A DNA stretch of 25,596 nt from Candidatus Fermentibacterota bacterium (GTDB lineage Bacteria; JAFGKV01). Position 1 is the stretch's first letter, and each line of letters starts with the position of its first letter. Positions 3,430 to 12,874 of the stretch are shown in pieces. The stretch spans positions 1-25,596 of the forward strand of contig JAUXFG010000044.1 of NCBI GenBank assembly GCA_030620115.1. The letters run 5' to 3'. The notes beneath the pieces are model-generated. The model was not told the origin of the DNA. It did no database searches and saw nothing but the letters and a program-made list of their open reading frames with translations. Both the position numbers and the translations under genes were made by a program.

Positions 3430-3654
3430 CCCGCGATGTCTATGATTTGCAGTACCCAATCGAACTTGTTTGACCCATTTACTCAAACAATCGAGATGTA
3501 AGCGGCTAAACTCACGGGATTGGCTATGGTGGGGCTGAGATGGCCTTGCCCCTGGTCTCTTGACTTTATCGCTGGTCTCGTCAACCTTGTCGATCACGAT
3601 GGAACCATTGGAGGACTTCTGTCTGTAATTTCGTATAGATGATGGAGGATGGAT

Positions 3655-5040
3655 GTGATTCGGTATCTCAAGCCTGTGGTGGTCCTCGCCATGATGGCGG
3701 CTGCAGCCGCCATCTTTCTCCCAAGGAACGGGGATGCTGGCCCAAAGGCGCCTGATCTATTGGTGGTCTACACCGGGGACGTTATTGGGAACATAGAGCC
3801 ATGCGGGTGAAAGGGTAACCAGCAGGGAGGGCTGGCCCGGCGGGCTGGCTTCGTCAGACAACTACGCGAGCAGGGGGATGAGTTCTTGCTGGTTGATTCG
3901 GGGGATTTTTCCGGATCGCGCCGAGCGCAGGGACGTATCCAAGCTCAAGTCATAGTCGAAGGAATGGCTGCCATGGGCTACCATGCGGCCGCCTTGGGAG
4001 AGCGAGAGCTTGGCCAAGGAAAGGCCTTCATCGATTCCTTGATCCAATCGGCTCCGTTTCCCCTGCTGGCCGCGAATGTCAGTGATGCAGAGACTGGGAA
4101 ACGATTGACACCGACGTATGAGATGTTTGAGGTCGGCGGGCGCAGTGTGGGGGTCATTGGGTTGGTTATGCTTGCCTCCCCGACCCAGGTCGATACGGCG
4201 GAGTTCCGGATAGAGGATCCAATCCAGTGGGCCCGGCAGCTTGTCCCAGAGGTGCGTCGCCAGAGTGATTACGTGCTTGTATTGTCACATCTGGGGTGGG
4301 GAGGATCCTTCGCGCTTGCCCAGCAGGTGGAGGGAATCGACATCATTGTGGCAGGGCATGGGTCCCACCAGACTCGCGAGCCTCAGAGGGTCGGGTCAAC
4401 CCTCCTCGTGCAGGCCGGCAACAAGGGCAGGCGTGTGGGGGTACTTCGGATCAAGGGCTCAATTCAGAAGGGGAAGTATGAGGGAGAGCTCGTGGGGCTC
4501 AGCAAGTCCATGCCCGAAGATGCCGAAGTCAAGGAAATCGCAAAAGAATACCAAAGGCGAATTAGAGCGATCTATTCCGCCGACTCCGAGAGAAACAGAG
4601 TCGCTCCCCGGGTCGTGCAGATCAGGCAGAAGTATGCAGGCGCGCAATCCTGTCGAAGCTGCCATATGGAGATCTTTGACCGCTGGCTTGACACGAAGCA
4701 TGCGAATGCCATGGCTGCCTTGGAGCAGAAGGGCATGGAATTTGATCCAGAGTGTGTGCGGTGTCACAGCACCGGTTTCCGGAAGTCGAGCGGCTTCATA
4801 AGCATGAAGAGAACTCCCCGTCTTGCCAATGTGCAGTGTGAGCAGTGCCATGGTGCGGGGCATCTCCACCTCCTGTACCGGCAGAAGGGAGAGGCCGCAG
4901 TTGCCAGCCTTGGGCCCGTGTCAGTGGAGCGGGCGAAGAATTACGGCAAGGTGAGGATCACTGCATGCCTCGAGTGTCACACGGTGGAGCGTGACGACGA
5001 CTTCTCCTATGAGGAGGGTGATCTTACCGGAATCCATTGA
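3655..5040 (+). CDS. Probable selenoprotein: UshA-like metallophosphatase with tetrahaem cytochrome c domain
   Basis: Read through an in-frame TGA at 3808-3810, this gives 461 residues. The N-terminus is a signal peptide (hydrophobic stretch about 7-22, possible cleavage near GDA). A calcineurin-like/5'-nucleotidase-type domain follows: VVYTGDVIGNIEPCG-U-KGNQQGGLARR, LLVDSGDF, LLAANV, VLSHLGWGG and IIVAGHGSH. The C-terminal part carries four c-haem sites, CRSCH, CVRCH, CEQCH and CLECH, as in cytochrome c554-like modules, and ends naturally with DDDFSYEEGDLTGIH. As I know the family, the motif is EPCGCK, so TGA (codon 52) falls on a conserved Cys. GGAGG at 3644-3648 gives 6-nt spacing to GTG 3655; ATG 3649 abuts it and is less likely. 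Selenocysteine is the best explanation. A nonsense mutation or sequencing error is the alternative. The protein is likely periplasmic, with unknown substrate. Confidence 0.8.
3808..3810 (+). other. In-frame TGA, predicted selenocysteine codon
   Basis: The TGA keeps frame with about 50 codons upstream (signal peptide plus the DLLVVYTGDVIGNIEPCG strand and loop) and with the whole metallophosphatase-cytochrome frame downstream. Both sides are parts of one domain. It replaces the second Cys of EPCGC and gives a Cys-Gly-Sec motif. TGA is used as a normal stop elsewhere in the window (for example 5038-5040 and 7524-7526), so a global code change is excluded. Confidence 0.72.
3813..3849 (+). promoter_or_regulatory. 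Candidate bacterial SECIS hairpin(s) downstream of the TGA
   Basis: Two mutually exclusive folds are visible. Fold A pairs 3819-3823 (CCAGC) with 3831-3835 (GCTGG) around loop AGGGAGG, extended by GGG 3813-3815 with CCC 3836-3838 across a TAA bulge. Fold B pairs 3831-3838 (GCTGGCCC) with 3842-3849 (GGGCTGGC), eight pairs including two G-U, closing a GGC loop that begins 28 nt after the TGA. Fold B fits the general bacterial SECIS picture: apical loop roughly 16-37 nt from TGA, with a G among its first bases. The structures were judged by eye only. Confidence 0.5.
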
Positions 5041-5141: not shown

Positions 5142-6518
5142 ATGCGTAATCGTCTGCAAGATAAAGCTTTCCCGAGGTCATTGGCCCTTCATTACCACGT
5201 GGTTCCGGAGGATGCGGAAGGGGATTGCCTTTCGCTCATGACTGATGAGCCAATCAATCCGGATGCCATTGTTGAGATCGAGCAGTTATGTGGACGCCAT
5301 GTGACGCTTCGTCATGTGCCATCGGAGCTGTATCGTCGACACATGCGTGAAGTCTATGGCCTCGGCGCCGAGGCATTGGCAGGGGAAGGAGCCTCTCCTG
5401 CGCCCCAGGAAGAGGGTGGTCCCCCCGATGTGGGGACAGTGCGGTTCGTGCGGGAACTTCTCTCTGAGGCCGTCACCAAGGGGGCCAGCGATATTCATTT
5501 GGAACCGTGCCTGGAGGGATTGCGCGTGCGGCTGCGGGTGGATGGCCTTTTGGAGGTCTTGCCCGTCCCCACTGACCTGAGCCGGCACAGCATGAAGGTG
5601 GCGTCGCGTATCAAGGTCATGGCCGGCTTGGACCCGAGCCCGAGCAAGGCTCCCAAGGAGGGGAGGATTCGCTATGAGGGCCGTGATCTTCGGGTATCGA
5701 TTCTCCCTGTCCCGCGTGGAGAAGCGGTTCACCTTCGTTTCTTGGCACCGGCGGGGGAATTGCCTGACCTGTCAGGGTTAGGTTTGTCATCACACCAGTG
5801 TACGCTCCTGTGCTCCGCTGCACGGATTCGAGGGGGACTCATTGTCGCATGTGGCCCTACCGGTTCAGGCAAGAGTACTACGCTTCACGTGCTCCTGAGA
5901 AAAGCTATCCCATTGACGGAAAAGATCATTACTGTTGAGGATCCGGTAGAGTATGAGCTGAACAACGCAGTCCAGGTTGAGGTTCGTCCCAAGGTGTCGT
6001 TCGCCTCTGCCCTCAAGGCGGTGCTGCGGCACGATCCTGATGTGATCCTGATCGGCGAAATGAGGGATTCCGAGAGCGCGGGCATTGCGGTTGAAGCCGC
6101 ACTCACCGGTCATCTCGTGCTGACCTCGTTGCACACGGAGGATGAAGTCCAGGCCATCACCCGGCTGCGCCAGCTTGGGCTATCGCCGGGACTGTTGGCT
6201 TCCTCACTTCGTCTATTGATCTCTCAGCGTCTAGTCCGGAGGACCTGCGGCGCGTGCAGAGGGACCGGAGAGAGTGGAGGCGTGCTGTGCACATTCTGCG
6301 GGGGAAACGGTCTCAAAGGCAGGATAGGCTTGTTCAGAATCACCAGAGTCGACGAGGAGCTTCTCACCGCAATAGAGTCCGGTGCGGATGAGACAAGACT
6401 GAGGACGGTGCTTCAACAGAGTGGGGCAATGGCATTGCCGGATGTCGGTCGCAGGCTTGTCGAACAGGGAATCACGACAGCCCAGGAGGTGACCAGAGTA
6501 TTGGGTGATGGGGTGTAG
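5142..6518 (+). CDS. gspE: Type II secretion / pilus assembly ATPase GspE
   Basis: A hexameric cytoplasmic ATPase that powers pseudopilus assembly, 458 residues. Residues about 10-75 form a short N-terminal adaptor domain (LALHYHVVPEDAEGD...). The PilT/GspE core carries SDIHLEP (116-122), Walker A GPTGSGKST (238-246), Asp box EDPVEY (266-271), Walker B DVILIGEMRD (300-309) and His box TSLHTED (328-334). A zinc-binding tetracysteine (C369, C372, C383, C386) is typical of GspE/PilB and absent from PilT. TGA occurs in frame two codons upstream, so ATG 5142 is the first ATG available; its Shine-Dalgarno (GGTGA at 5134-5138) is weak, 101 nt after the selenoprotein stop. It is followed 3 nt later by gspF. 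PilB/MshE is the alternative name, but the gspG neighbour favours type II secretion. Confidence 0.93.
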   Translation: MRNRLQDKAFPRSLALHYHVVPEDAEGDCLSLMTDEPINPDAIVEIEQLCGRHVTLRHVPSELYRRHMREVYGLGAEALAGEGASPAPQEEGGPPDVGTVRFVRELLSEAVTKGASDIHLEPCLEGLRVRLRVDGLLEVLPVPTDLSRHSMKVASRIKVMAGLDPSPSKAPKEGRIRYEGRDLRVSILPVPRGEAVHLRFLAPAGELPDLSGLGLSSHQCTLLCSAARIRGGLIVACGPTGSGKSTTLHVLLRKAIPLTEKIITVEDPVEYELNNAVQVEVRPKVSFASALKAVLRHDPDVILIGEMRDSESAGIAVEAALTGHLVLTSLHTEDEVQAITRLRQLGLSPGLLASSLRLLISQRLVRRTCGACRGTGESGGVLCTFCGGNGLKGRIGLFRITRVDEELLTAIESGADETRLRTVLQQSGAMALPDVGRRLVEQGITTAQEVTRVLGDGV

Positions 6519-6521
6519 TCA

Positions 6522-7526
6522 ATGAAGGCCGAGACTGTTGCCGGATATTGCGAGGAATTGCGGTCACTTCTGTGCGGAGGGATGGCGCTGGGACAGGCGG
6601 TTGCACTGCTTGCCGATGAGGCAGGGACCTCCGGTCCCGAGCGTCTGGTGGCCCAGCGAGTGGTCTCCGGTTCATCCCTGGCTGAGGGTATGGCGTATGC
6701 CTTTTCCCCGCTTCCTGAATGGATACGACATGTCATCAGCGTGACCGAAGAAGCCGCTGCGGTGGACCATGGGCTTGACCTTGTTGCAGGACAACTACGC
6801 GAAGAAATTGTCTGGAGGGACGATCTGCTCAGATCACTGGCATATCCGTTGGTGCTGCTTGCCGCCACTACGTTGGTCGGCCTTATCCTCGCCGTAGTGA
6901 TCCTGCCATCGCTGTCGGCCATGACAGAGGAGCTGGGCGCTGCTCTGCCGTTGGCGTCGAGGGTTGCATTGACCATGGGCGCCTTTGCCGCTTCTCCGGG
7001 AGGTTTCTTGGTCTGGCTGGCGATTTTTTCCGTGTCGGTGTGGTTGTATACGGGAAGAGCGCGTGCTCCTGATTTTCTCGCTCGCATGCCGTGGATTCGG
7101 AATGCCTTGATGCTTGCGGAAACGTGGCGGTATTTCCGCATTGCCGGGGTGCTTCTCGCGGCGGATCTTCCGCTGCATAGAGCCTTGCGACAGGCCGCTG
7201 GCGCCGTCCGGCCGCTGGCGTGGCGCGCGGAGGCGCGACGTCTGGCTGAGCGTGTGGAAGCAGGTGAGGCGGCCGCATTGGCTGTCCGTGCCGTGGGGTG
7301 GCTCCCTTCGCGCACTGCACGGGTGCTCTCGGTGGCTGCTTCATCCGGGGCCATGGCACAGGGAGTAGAGAACCTCGCCCAATGGGCTGCGGCACGGAGG
7401 AGGGCCGTGCTCAAGACATGGGCCACATGGCTGCCTGTGGTATTATTGGGCGTGTCTGCGGTGATGATTGGTTTTCTGGCCCAGGCAGTGCTTTTACCGG
7501 CCTTTCAAATAGACGTGATTCCATGA
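6522..7526 (+). CDS. gspF: Type II secretion inner-membrane platform protein GspF
   Basis: A polytopic inner-membrane platform that couples the GspE ATPase to pseudopilin assembly, 334 residues. Two T2SSF helical domains are visible. The first (about 8-105) contains LRSLLCGGMALGQAVALLADE, VVSGSSLAEGM and VTEEAAAVDHGLDLVAGQLREE. The second (about 205-295) contains FRIAGVLLAADLPLHRALRQAA and VAASSGAMAQGVENLA. Transmembrane segments lie at about 108-129, 160-177 and 302-324, as expected. It is shorter than the usual 400 or so residues because it starts directly at the first T2SSF domain and lacks the N-terminal extension. It begins 3 nt after gspE and ends 10 nt before gspG, so the three are surely one operon. 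Confidence 0.92.
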   Translation: MKAETVAGYCEELRSLLCGGMALGQAVALLADEAGTSGPERLVAQRVVSGSSLAEGMAYAFSPLPEWIRHVISVTEEAAAVDHGLDLVAGQLREEIVWRDDLLRSLAYPLVLLAATTLVGLILAVVILPSLSAMTEELGAALPLASRVALTMGAFAASPGGFLVWLAIFSVSVWLYTGRARAPDFLARMPWIRNALMLAETWRYFRIAGVLLAADLPLHRALRQAAGAVRPLAWRAEARRLAERVEAGEAAALAVRAVGWLPSRTARVLSVAASSGAMAQGVENLAQWAAARRRAVLKTWATWLPVVLLGVSAVMIGFLAQAVLLPAFQIDVIP

Positions 7527-7536
7527 GGAGGTCTCC

Positions 7537-7986
7537 ATGATCCCCTGGCGTGGCAAGAGAGAGATATTGGCGAGGGGATTTACCCTCATTGAGTTGCTCC
7601 TGGTCTTGGTCATTCTTGCGGCATTGACTGCGCTGGTGATGCCTCGTTTCACCGGGCGGGCGAGAAAGGCCAAGATTTCCACCACCCGGGTGGATGTGTT
7701 CATGAACCTTCCTACCGCCCTTGATCTCTATGAGATGGACAATGGCATGTATCCAACCACGACCCAAGGGCTTCGGGCTCTGATCGAGAAGCCCACGATA
7801 AGCCCCATGCCGATGAGCTGGGAGGGCCCCTATCTCAAGAGGCCCGTGCTGCCCACGGATCCTTGGGGGAGGCACTATAGGTACCGGTGTCCTGCCACCG
7901 CAAGAGGCGTTGATTACGAGCTCTTCTCCGTGGGCCCTGATGGTATCGAATCCACGGATGACGATATTGCCAATTGGAAAGGCTAG
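7537..7986 (+). CDS. gspG: Type II secretion major pseudopilin GspG
   Basis: The major pseudopilin, processed at the inner membrane and polymerised into the type II pseudopilus, 149 residues. It has a 14-residue basic leader ending ARG, then FTLIELLLVLVILAALTALVMP, the class III signal: cleavage after G14, mature F1 and Glu at mature position 5 (E19). The C-terminal half has the GspG core: MYPTTTQGLRALI, GPYLKR, PTDPWGRHYRY, and YELFSVGPDGIESTDDDIANW, the calcium-binding region of GspG. The AGGAGG at 7526-7531 gives 5-nt spacing to the ATG. No prepilin peptidase, minor pseudopilins or GspD secretin are in this window, so those parts must be encoded elsewhere if the system works. Confidence 0.96.
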   Translation: MIPWRGKREILARGFTLIELLLVLVILAALTALVMPRFTGRARKAKISTTRVDVFMNLPTALDLYEMDNGMYPTTTQGLRALIEKPTISPMPMSWEGPYLKRPVLPTDPWGRHYRYRCPATARGVDYELFSVGPDGIESTDDDIANWKG

Positions 7987-10226: not shown

Positions 10227-12659
10227 CTACCTGATGAGTATCAGCCTACCGGCTGCGGTGTAATCACCAGCCACAAGGCGGTACACATAGTGGCCGCTTC
10301 CTACCGGCAGACCATGATTGTTGGCGCCATCCCAAGAGATCGTGTACTCACCGGGTGAGAGGTTCCCGCGAACCAGGGATCTGACCTCATGCCCCGCTAT
10401 GGTAAAGATGGAAAGACGTACACTCCTGGGATCAGCAAGGCAAAAACGGATCGCTGCGGGCGGGGTGAATGGGTTCGGATAGCTGTACTCCAGGGTGGTC
10501 TGCTTCGGCCCAACTGACCAGCCATCTACGGCACGGGTGGGGATATCATTGGTATTCCCCGTGCGTCGTGAGTTGCCCTTGAAGCACGGCCAGATGACCT
10601 CGGCAGCCCGCTTGTAGTCGACACAGAAGTAGTCGGCCCCGTCCGAGGCAACGATCTCCAGGTCACCGTCTTGGTCAAGATCGCCGAGACAGGGGCTGTA
10701 CTTGAGATTCTGTCCTATGGGCAAGGGGAAGTTCTCGATCTCGGCGCCGTGGATATCGATGGCGTGGATGAATCCCAGCGCGTCTCCGAAGATGATGTCA
10801 ATTGTCCCGTCCCCATTGAGATCAGCCAACACAGGTGTCGATTGCACCACGGCATCGATGTCCAGAGGGAAGTTTGGGAAATCGGTGCCCGATCCATCGA
10901 TCACATAGAGTGCGCCATACCTATTGAGAAAGATCAGCTCGAGATCATGGTCCTTGTCCAGATCCGCCGCGACCACGGATGTCTTGATGGAGATCTCCGC
11001 ATCCCGTGTGAAGAGCTCGGCGCCGTCGTGGTTCACCGCCACCAGGTTTCCATTCTCCAAACCCACGATAACCTCGGGCTCCATGTCCCCGTCGATGTCC
11101 GTCACGATGGGTCCATTAGCCGATTTGCTGCCGGTAACAAAAGGCCAGCCTAAAATATCGCTCCCCGTCGCGGTTGAGATGGCGTGGAGGCTCCCGCCGT
11201 CTGCATCAGAGACGGCGAGCAGTTCGAGAGCACCGTCGCCGTTCAGATCTGCTATGGCGGGGGAAGACTGAACCCTGCTGCCGATTGCCATGGGGAAGAC
11301 GCCGAAGTCAGTACCGTCCGCATTCAGCACTAGGATCTGCCCTGTGGTGGTGGTGATGGCAATGATTTCCGAGGAACCATCTCCATCCACGTCCGCGATC
11401 ATGGGATTGGCCCCTAGCTGTTCATCCACATCGCGGGTGAAGAGTACGGTTCCAGCATGGTCCACGGCGACGATGGCGTCTCCTGTTCGTTTGGTGACTA
11501 TGATCTCCATGGTCTCGTCGCCGGTGATATCTCCGATGGCGGCTGACGTCTGTATGCTGCCGCCCAGAGACACGGGGAATCCAGGGAGCTCTGTTTGGCC
11601 GTCGGCCCTGAAGGCGTGTATCTGGCCAGAGTAGTCGCCGAAGATCAGCTCATTGCTCCCATCGTTATCGATGTTTGCGATGAGTGCGGAGGTGGATGAG
11701 CGGAGAGGTACAGGCCATCCGGCCTGGTGCAATGTAACGTCAAGATCGACATCGTAGCTTATTTCATAGGGCTCGTCCGTGCCGGAGTTGGCTGAGAACT
11801 GTACTTGGAACGTGGTGAAGAAGACCTCGTTCGCCGTGATCGTGAATATGAAGGGATCCTCTGCATTGGTGGCCGAGTCGCCGTTGGCGACGTTCCCGAA
11901 CTCATACCTATCGTTGGTGATCATTATCCGTGTATCGTCACAGCTAAGCGTAGCCACCACATCATCTGCATCGAGCCATCCGGCCCAATTCCGCATATCA
12001 ATGGTGACCTGGCCGCTCTCCAGTGGATTCATGATGCCGTCATTGTCCGCGTTTGCCGGATCTTCGATAATCGTAGTCTGTGCCAGATGGATGTGGGGAA
12101 AGATGATGCCCAGAATTCTCAGGCTGTCGATGACCACATCAACCAGTGGACGGTCGTTTACATCGGTGGGTACGTCGCCAATGGCCTGGACCACATTTAT
12201 CCCGCTGATGACTTTTCCGAATACGGCATGAAGGTCATCCAGGTGGGGTTGCGGAGAGAGGGTGATGAAGTACTGCGATCCCCCCGTATTGGGCCCTGCA
12301 TTGGCCATGGAAAGGATCCCCGCATCATCGTGCCGCAGATCAGGATGAAACTCGTCTGGTATGGTGTAGCCCGGGCCTCCTTCCCCTGTGCCCGTGGGAT
12401 CGCCATCTTGGATCACAAAGGTGTCGATAACCCGGTGGAAGATACACCCATCGTAGAAATTGGCATTGGTCAGATCCATGAAGTTCCCTGCGGTGATGGG
12501 CACTAGGTCCTCGCGCAGCTCGACCCTGAAGTCCCCCATGGTGGTGTGCCATTCAGCCACGCTTTGTGCTGCCACGGGATGGGGCCAGAGCACACAGGCC
12601 GTGGCAACAAGCACGGCAACCGGAAGAACGGCGTGAAGCTTCTCCACACGGTGGGTCAT
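10227..12659 (-). CDS. Secreted cyclophilin-type peptidyl-prolyl isomerase fused to FG-GAP-like propeller and FlgD-like C-terminal domain
   Basis: An 810-residue exported protein. The signal peptide is about 1-31 (cleavage VAA|Q). A cyclophilin domain follows at about 34-184: FHRVIDTFVIQDGDP (74-88), SMANAGPNTGGSQYFIT (117-133) and HLDDLHAVFGKVISG, with His where human CypA has the cyclosporin-contacting Trp. Residues about 195-310 form a beta domain (NADNDGIMNPLESG...). Eight FG-GAP/VCBS-like repeats with DxDxDG-type loops (ADVDGDG, ADLNGDG, TDIDGD, GDLDQDGD) follow at about 322-720. The last 80 residues (YSYPNPFTPPAAIRF ... GHYVYRLVAGD) are a FlgD/type IX-like sandwich. The start is taken at ATG 12659 because AAGGAG lies just upstream; the ATG 15 codons earlier adds a sequence unlike a signal peptide. 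Cis-trans proline isomerisation outside the cytoplasm is inferred. Confidence 0.9.
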   Translation of the reverse strand: MTHRVEKLHAVLPVAVLVATACVLWPHPVAAQSVAEWHTTMGDFRVELREDLVPITAGNFMDLTNANFYDGCIFHRVIDTFVIQDGDPTGTGEGGPGYTIPDEFHPDLRHDDAGILSMANAGPNTGGSQYFITLSPQPHLDDLHAVFGKVISGINVVQAIGDVPTDVNDRPLVDVVIDSLRILGIIFPHIHLAQTTIIEDPANADNDGIMNPLESGQVTIDMRNWAGWLDADDVVATLSCDDTRIMITNDRYEFGNVANGDSATNAEDPFIFTITANEVFFTTFQVQFSANSGTDEPYEISYDVDLDVTLHQAGWPVPLRSSTSALIANIDNDGSNELIFGDYSGQIHAFRADGQTELPGFPVSLGGSIQTSAAIGDITGDETMEIIVTKRTGDAIVAVDHAGTVLFTRDVDEQLGANPMIADVDGDGSSEIIAITTTTGQILVLNADGTDFGVFPMAIGSRVQSSPAIADLNGDGALELLAVSDADGGSLHAISTATGSDILGWPFVTGSKSANGPIVTDIDGDMEPEVIVGLENGNLVAVNHDGAELFTRDAEISIKTSVVAADLDKDHDLELIFLNRYGALYVIDGSGTDFPNFPLDIDAVVQSTPVLADLNGDGTIDIIFGDALGFIHAIDIHGAEIENFPLPIGQNLKYSPCLGDLDQDGDLEIVASDGADYFCVDYKRAAEVIWPCFKGNSRRTGNTNDIPTRAVDGWSVGPKQTTLEYSYPNPFTPPAAIRFCLADPRSVRLSIFTIAGHEVRSLVRGNLSPGEYTISWDGANNHGLPVGSGHYVYRLVAGDYTAAGRLILIR

Positions 12660-12874
12660 GATCTCTCTCCTTTGCATGTGGCATAGGCAAATGTCGTGGG
12701 GCACATTTTCTTGTCTTGTTCGTGAGGTTTCCCCTTTCTGATCCCAAGGAACGTACAGTGATGGAAGAAGAAAGGCAAAGAGGAAGCATGGATCGAATGG
12801 TAGTTCAGGCTAGACCCGTGAACGGCTATGTCCCGATTTATTGAATAGGCGTGCGGCGTGGCGGGTAGTATTGT

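Follow-up and report, generated by a model that had tools for sequence, protein, structure and literature searches.

The window analysed here, a stretch of 25,596 nucleotides, carries on its forward strand a gene of 461 residues in which one long reading frame is interrupted by a single TGA, codon 52, and closed by a second TGA at 5038-5040. The frame reads as the original prediction had described it, and the internal TGA splits the sequence EPCG-TGA-KGNQQGGLARR. The encoded protein combines a signal-peptide-like N-terminus, a metallophosphatase-fold domain and a cytochrome c554-like domain with four CxxCH motifs, which had been claimed for it and are indeed present and invariant in the homologues. 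The coordinates of the gene and its features are listed in Table 1.

Table 1. Features of the predicted selenoprotein gene and its surroundings in the window
Feature	Position	Strand	Basis
Shine-Dalgarno-like GGAGG, 6 bases before GTG 3655	3644..3648	+	sequence read
Predicted selenoprotein gene, 461 residues, UshA-like PCGU family (NF041198)	3655..5040	+	profile score; single internal TGA
Signal-peptide-like N-terminus, residues 1-28, hydrophobic core residues 2-21	3655..3738	+	hydropathy; predicted helix 2-21
Metallophosphatase-fold domain, about residues 35-308, non-canonical dimetal site	3757..4578	+	5'-nucleotidase fold match; ligand columns
Putative Cys-Gly-Sec motif, residues 50-52; Sec codon TGA 3808-3810	3802..3810	+	homologue alignment; TGA in all three phylum genomes
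SECIS-type hairpin, arms 3829-3838 and 3842-3851, apical loop GGC 3839-3841, 28 nt after TGA	3829..3851	+	scan, fold, covariation, Cys-homologue control
Cytochrome c554-like tetrahaem domain	4642..5013	+	PF13435 E 1e-17; NF041198 positions 346-519; 1bvb in profile search
Haem-binding CRSCH, residues 333-337	4651..4665	+	invariant in alignment
Haem-binding CVRCH, residues 367-371	4753..4767	+	invariant in alignment
Haem-binding CEQCH, residues 395-399	4837..4851	+	invariant in alignment
Haem-binding CLECH, residues 438-442	4966..4980	+	invariant in alignment

Reading frame, start and genomic context

GTG 3655 was preferred as the start codon because GGAGG lies six bases upstream of it, whereas the in-frame ATG at 3649 abuts that motif and is the poorer start. 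An alternative start had been considered at ATG 3886, which was a misreading, the codon at 3886 being TTG. The base composition at the three codon positions is 0.67/0.43/0.67 before the internal TGA and 0.65/0.44/0.67 after it, so that both halves look coding. In both relatives from the phylum (L026 and G002) the terminal stop is TAG and follows the same GIH residues, and the final TGA of the window gene is thus a true stop. TGA closes 8 of the 16 main frames in the window, this gene included; it is therefore an ordinary stop elsewhere and the standard genetic code applies. This stop usage refutes a reading in which TGA codes for an amino acid throughout the genome, and we give that reading practically no weight.

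A gspE-gspF-gspG cluster (5142-7986, forward strand; type II secretion/type IV pilus-like) lies directly after the selenoprotein gene, and gspE-gspF also follow the homologous gene in L026. Apart from this pair within the phylum, and multihaem cytochromes and ResB near some other members, no shared functional partner was found among the neighbour genes of distant homologues. Elsewhere in the window, a protein of 825 residues (10227-12704, reverse strand) contains a cyclophilin domain, FG-GAP repeats and a FlgD-type C-terminal domain, which resemble the sorting domains of exported FCB-group proteins.

The internal TGA codon and its predicted decoding

The same TGA was found at this codon in all three genomes of the phylum examined, the two relatives being L026, from a record named Ca. 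Fermentibacteria, and G002, which matches L027 from a record named Ca. Eisenbacteria and whose gene spans two contig ends overlapping by 74 bases. These two genomes carry the TGA independently at 57-58% protein identity to the window protein, and it also occurs in divergent phyla. Among the 17 cytochrome-fused homologues covering the site, the column of residue 52 holds Sec in 11 and Cys in the remaining 6, in agreement with the earlier expectation of Cys at this position, and Cys50, Gly51, Gly58 and Gly59 are invariant in the cytochrome-fused homologues aligned over it. A tree of the 17 rows requires two changes between the Sec and Cys forms and favours no direction for them. One Cys form, L028, whose record bears the name Nitrosomonas sp. 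MAG, clusters with the Deltaproteobacteria record L030 with support of 100/100, and its contig may be misbinned. Four sequences from the class of G004 (L089, L090, L091 and L092), in which no cytochrome part was detected, have a TGA in or beside the same column with different flanking motifs (SPFQT-U, LPCMT-U, KCTG-U and SPLRL-U), and may belong to UshA-like selenoprotein family 2 or represent other variants.

The source genome (98% complete, 1.6% contamination) contains all four components of the bacterial selenocysteine machinery for which a search had been proposed: tRNA-Sec (75.2 bits, anticodon TCA), selB (330.6 bits), selA (555.7 bits) and two copies of selD (403 and 362 bits), with the protein genes all above their cut-offs. 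tRNA-Sec and selB above cut-off were found in all three genomes of the phylum examined and selA above cut-off in two of the three draft genomes, while both relatives have two selD genes each, at least one of them with a TGA. The two selD genes of the source genome (G000:C293:1924-2853, L060, and G000:C33:7686-8609, L061) differ at the catalytic position, where one has TGA (Sec) and the other Cys, and the Cys type forms one open frame of 752 residues with an upstream NifS-like cysteine desulfurase part. In the second selD the TGA lies within AAG-TGA-AAK, which was aligned by eye to GLGCACK of the first, at the usual Cys/Sec position of selD. This TGA-bearing gene is an internal positive control for the decoding of selenocysteine.

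A scan run close to the published constraints on bacterial SECIS elements detected, downstream of the TGA, the hairpin GGGCTGGCCC[GGC]GGGCTGGCTT, with a stem of 10 bp, a 3-nt loop beginning with GG and a folding energy of -17.4 kcal/mol. The constraints comprise a loop of 3-9 nt with G in its first two positions, a stem of 4-16 bp, a distance of 16-37 nt from the TGA and a minimum free energy of -7.5 kcal/mol or lower (PMC13188914), and the hairpin lies within all four. Of 500 shuffles, one gave a hairpin of this strength. Folded in full, the region is no more stable than shuffles, and at gathering thresholds no Rfam family matched the window. Hairpins with the loop at the same position were found in L026 and G002 (TGGCCC[GGC]GGGCCA), L097 (TAGCTC[GTC]GAGCTA), L077 (CTGGCAC[GGC]GTGTCAG) and L080 (CTGACAC[GGC]GTGTCAG); in L029 and L032 the hairpin there has a loop of four bases. 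In six homologues compensatory changes occur with the hairpin kept in register. It is missing from this register in four of 12 Sec homologues (L031, L070, L087 and L088). Six Cys homologues, two of which share the protein motif GGLAR, have at most one pair at the hairpin position. Among ten Sec homologues the covariation score was 0.454 against 0.148 for shuffles, none of 500 shuffles reaching it, in a comparison where related sequences can exceed every shuffle; it fell to 0.19 or less when the partners were slid, and the six homologues closest in register gave the same result. In the three phylum genomes synonymous conservation within the gene peaks in the stretch right after the TGA, where six of the nine conserved positions carry codons identical in all three, versus 18% gene-wide (binomial P ~0.002). 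Another hairpin nearer the TGA, CCAGC[AGGGAGG]GCTGG, noticed by eye, was dropped, its register not being common to the relatives.

If the TGA were a sequencing error, or terminated translation in the usual way, the locus would be a pseudogene or would start at TTG 3886, where a gene caller blind to selenocysteine would indeed be expected to place the start, past the Sec codon and with loss of the signal peptide. Such a truncated form would yet keep its haem sites, and the recurrence of the TGA in two genomes at 57-58% identity and in divergent phyla, the full Sec machinery, the SECIS covariation and a coding composition without decay past the TGA all speak against this reading, which we hold to be very improbable. 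Judged from the sequence, TGA 3808-3810 almost certainly codes for selenocysteine.

Family assignment and domain architecture

The window protein matched NF041198, 'UshA-like (seleno)protein' (UshA_like_PCGU), with 327.6 bits (E 1.3e-97; equivalog cut-off 275). The PCG followed by Sec or Cys that belongs to this family is found here as EPCG-TGA, and positions 346-519 of the model match the cytochrome part, as the family requires, with 136.7 bits. The gene is very probably an NF041198 selenoprotein. SoxB (TIGR04486), the next-best curated family, scored 102 bits (E 2.5e-29; cut-off 550), and NF049981, UshA-like (seleno)protein family 2 (UshA_like_Sel_2), scored 78.7 bits (cut-off 140); the latter has the same fold with Sec in the same region, and its motif is CxxU.

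UshA-like selenoproteins with Cys or Sec, mentioned in the original prediction, exist both as NF041198 and in the literature (PMC2398784; PMC13188914). COG0737 UshA-like selenoproteins with a CxU motif and Cys homologues were reported in 2008 from the marine metagenomes of the Global Ocean Sampling and counted among three major families that lack a conserved Cys-based redox motif (PMC2398784); CxU lies in the UshA-type domain there, as in the window protein, and the cytochrome is unmentioned in that paper. UshA-like proteins are also listed as selenoproteins with a CxU motif (PMC9312934), and under the accession NF041198 (PMC13188914). The lineage of the window protein is deep and uncultured, with relatives among MAGs named Ca. 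Fermentibacteria and Ca. Eisenbacteria, and outside its nearest relatives the protein is at most 32% identical to the other homologues. Among the papers searched, none joined selenocysteine, multiheme and metallophosphoesterase, and none linked selenoprotein and Fermentibacteria. The family had been catalogued before and is functionally unstudied; the window gene adds to it a new member from an obscure phylum of uncultured bacteria.

The C-terminal region with its four CxxCH motifs resembles cytochrome c554, the match to PF13435 spanning residues 333-400, and differs from it in being fused to a phosphatase-fold domain. The NF041198 model includes the cytochrome part, which makes the fusion a feature of the known family. 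The predicted structure of the haem domain is of low confidence, with a pLDDT of about 40. One haem region, and nothing outside it, weakly matched MccSep (E 8e-5; PDB 9wt8 and others), which its depositors name a selenoprotein of the multiheme cytochrome c type; the entries 9wt8 and 9wt9 include a U325A mutant, and MccSep appears to offer an experimental precedent for a multihaem cytochrome that contains Sec.

The N-terminal domain is predicted to adopt the 5'-nucleotidase fold of CD73, UshA and SoxB (Z ~30-33), the best matches reaching Z 32-33 with an rmsd of 2.2 over about 279 residues. The earlier reading of a complete phosphatase held for this fold, which is intact, and failed for the active site, where other residues mostly stand in for the dimetal ligands and the catalytic His. 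The corresponding motifs are TNDTHGH, GNHEFD, HLG and GHSHT in canonical paralogues and TGDVIGN, GERELG, HLG and GHGSH in the window protein. His117 and Asn116 of UshA, its catalytic His and a metal ligand, are Arg and Glu here; the ligand positions D42, D84, H212 and H235 survive, so that this member may retain some metal binding or hydrolysis. The set of a functional UshA-type 5'-nucleotidase (D-x-H, D, N, H and GHxH ligands, and the His of GNHE) is therefore incomplete in the window protein, which has GDVIG, GERE and GHGS at these motifs, and the set is unconserved in the family, which keeps Asn116 in 0/19, His117 in 1/19, the His of D-x-H in 1/17, D42 in 7/17, D84 in 10/19, H212 in 10/19 and H235 in 7/19. 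Compared with UshA, CD73 and SoxB, the window protein also has a cytochrome in place of the C-terminal nucleotidase domain. In the same genome, a frame of 1255 residues (G000:C260:6991-9768) encodes two tandem UshA-type phosphatase domains that are relatives of the window protein. A plasmid search returned only partial matches below 60% identity, which look like ordinary phosphatases.

A putative redox centre beside the haems

The original prediction of an exported selenoprotein with Cys-Gly-Sec beside c-type haems is supported by the conservation of the motif, the Sec machinery and the SECIS-type hairpin, export being suggested by the N-terminus. SelB and Sec-tRNA-Sec would read TGA 3808-3810 as selenocysteine, directed by the hairpin downstream, and translation would end at the terminal TGA. 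The N-terminal signal would presumably export the protein, and the C-terminal CxxCH motifs would then receive four haems.

CG(U/C), GG and the four CxxCH motifs are invariant and the metal ligands are unconserved, from which we infer that the Cys-Gly-Sec motif is a working centre communicating with the haems. The pair sits right after the first metal-site strand. The phosphatase-fold domain may thus be a scaffold that was kept after most dimetal ligands were lost, with Cys50-Gly-Sec52, beside the old metal pocket, cycling between selenol/thiol and selenenyl-sulfide and exchanging electrons with the haems. To this redox mechanism, taken by itself and read from sequence conservation, we would give an even chance.

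In a true Sec-tuned metallophosphatase, or a SoxB-like hydrolase of the thiosulfohydrolase type, Sec52/Cys50 would instead serve within the dimetal pocket, as nucleophile or as metal ligand, with the cytochrome taking up the product electrons. In favour of this reading, SoxB ranks next among the curated families, the fold is matched by SoxB structures (Z ~30) and four ligand positions survive; against it stand a SoxB score far below cut-off, the replacement of His117 and Asn116, and the near absence of Asn, His and the D-x-H His across the family, and we regard such a hydrolase as unlikely. The redox reading can be extended, tentatively and with slightly less than even confidence, to the whole PCG(U/C)-cytochrome family, which would then be a pseudo-phosphatase of the 5'-nucleotidase/SoxB fold that has given up dimetal chemistry and turned into an extracytoplasmic selenenyl-sulfide oxidoreductase coupled to the fused tetrahaem cytochrome, with sulfur, selenium or metal as a possible substrate.

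These results widen the range of an exported selenoprotein family by a deep, uncultured lineage and add to the family an in-register, covarying SECIS element. The pattern in which CG-Sec/Cys and the haems are invariant and the phosphatase ligands are not argues that the inherited name 'UshA-like' and any annotation as a phosphatase are misleading, and it points to a redox function for selenoproteins that have been on record since 2008 with no role assigned to them.
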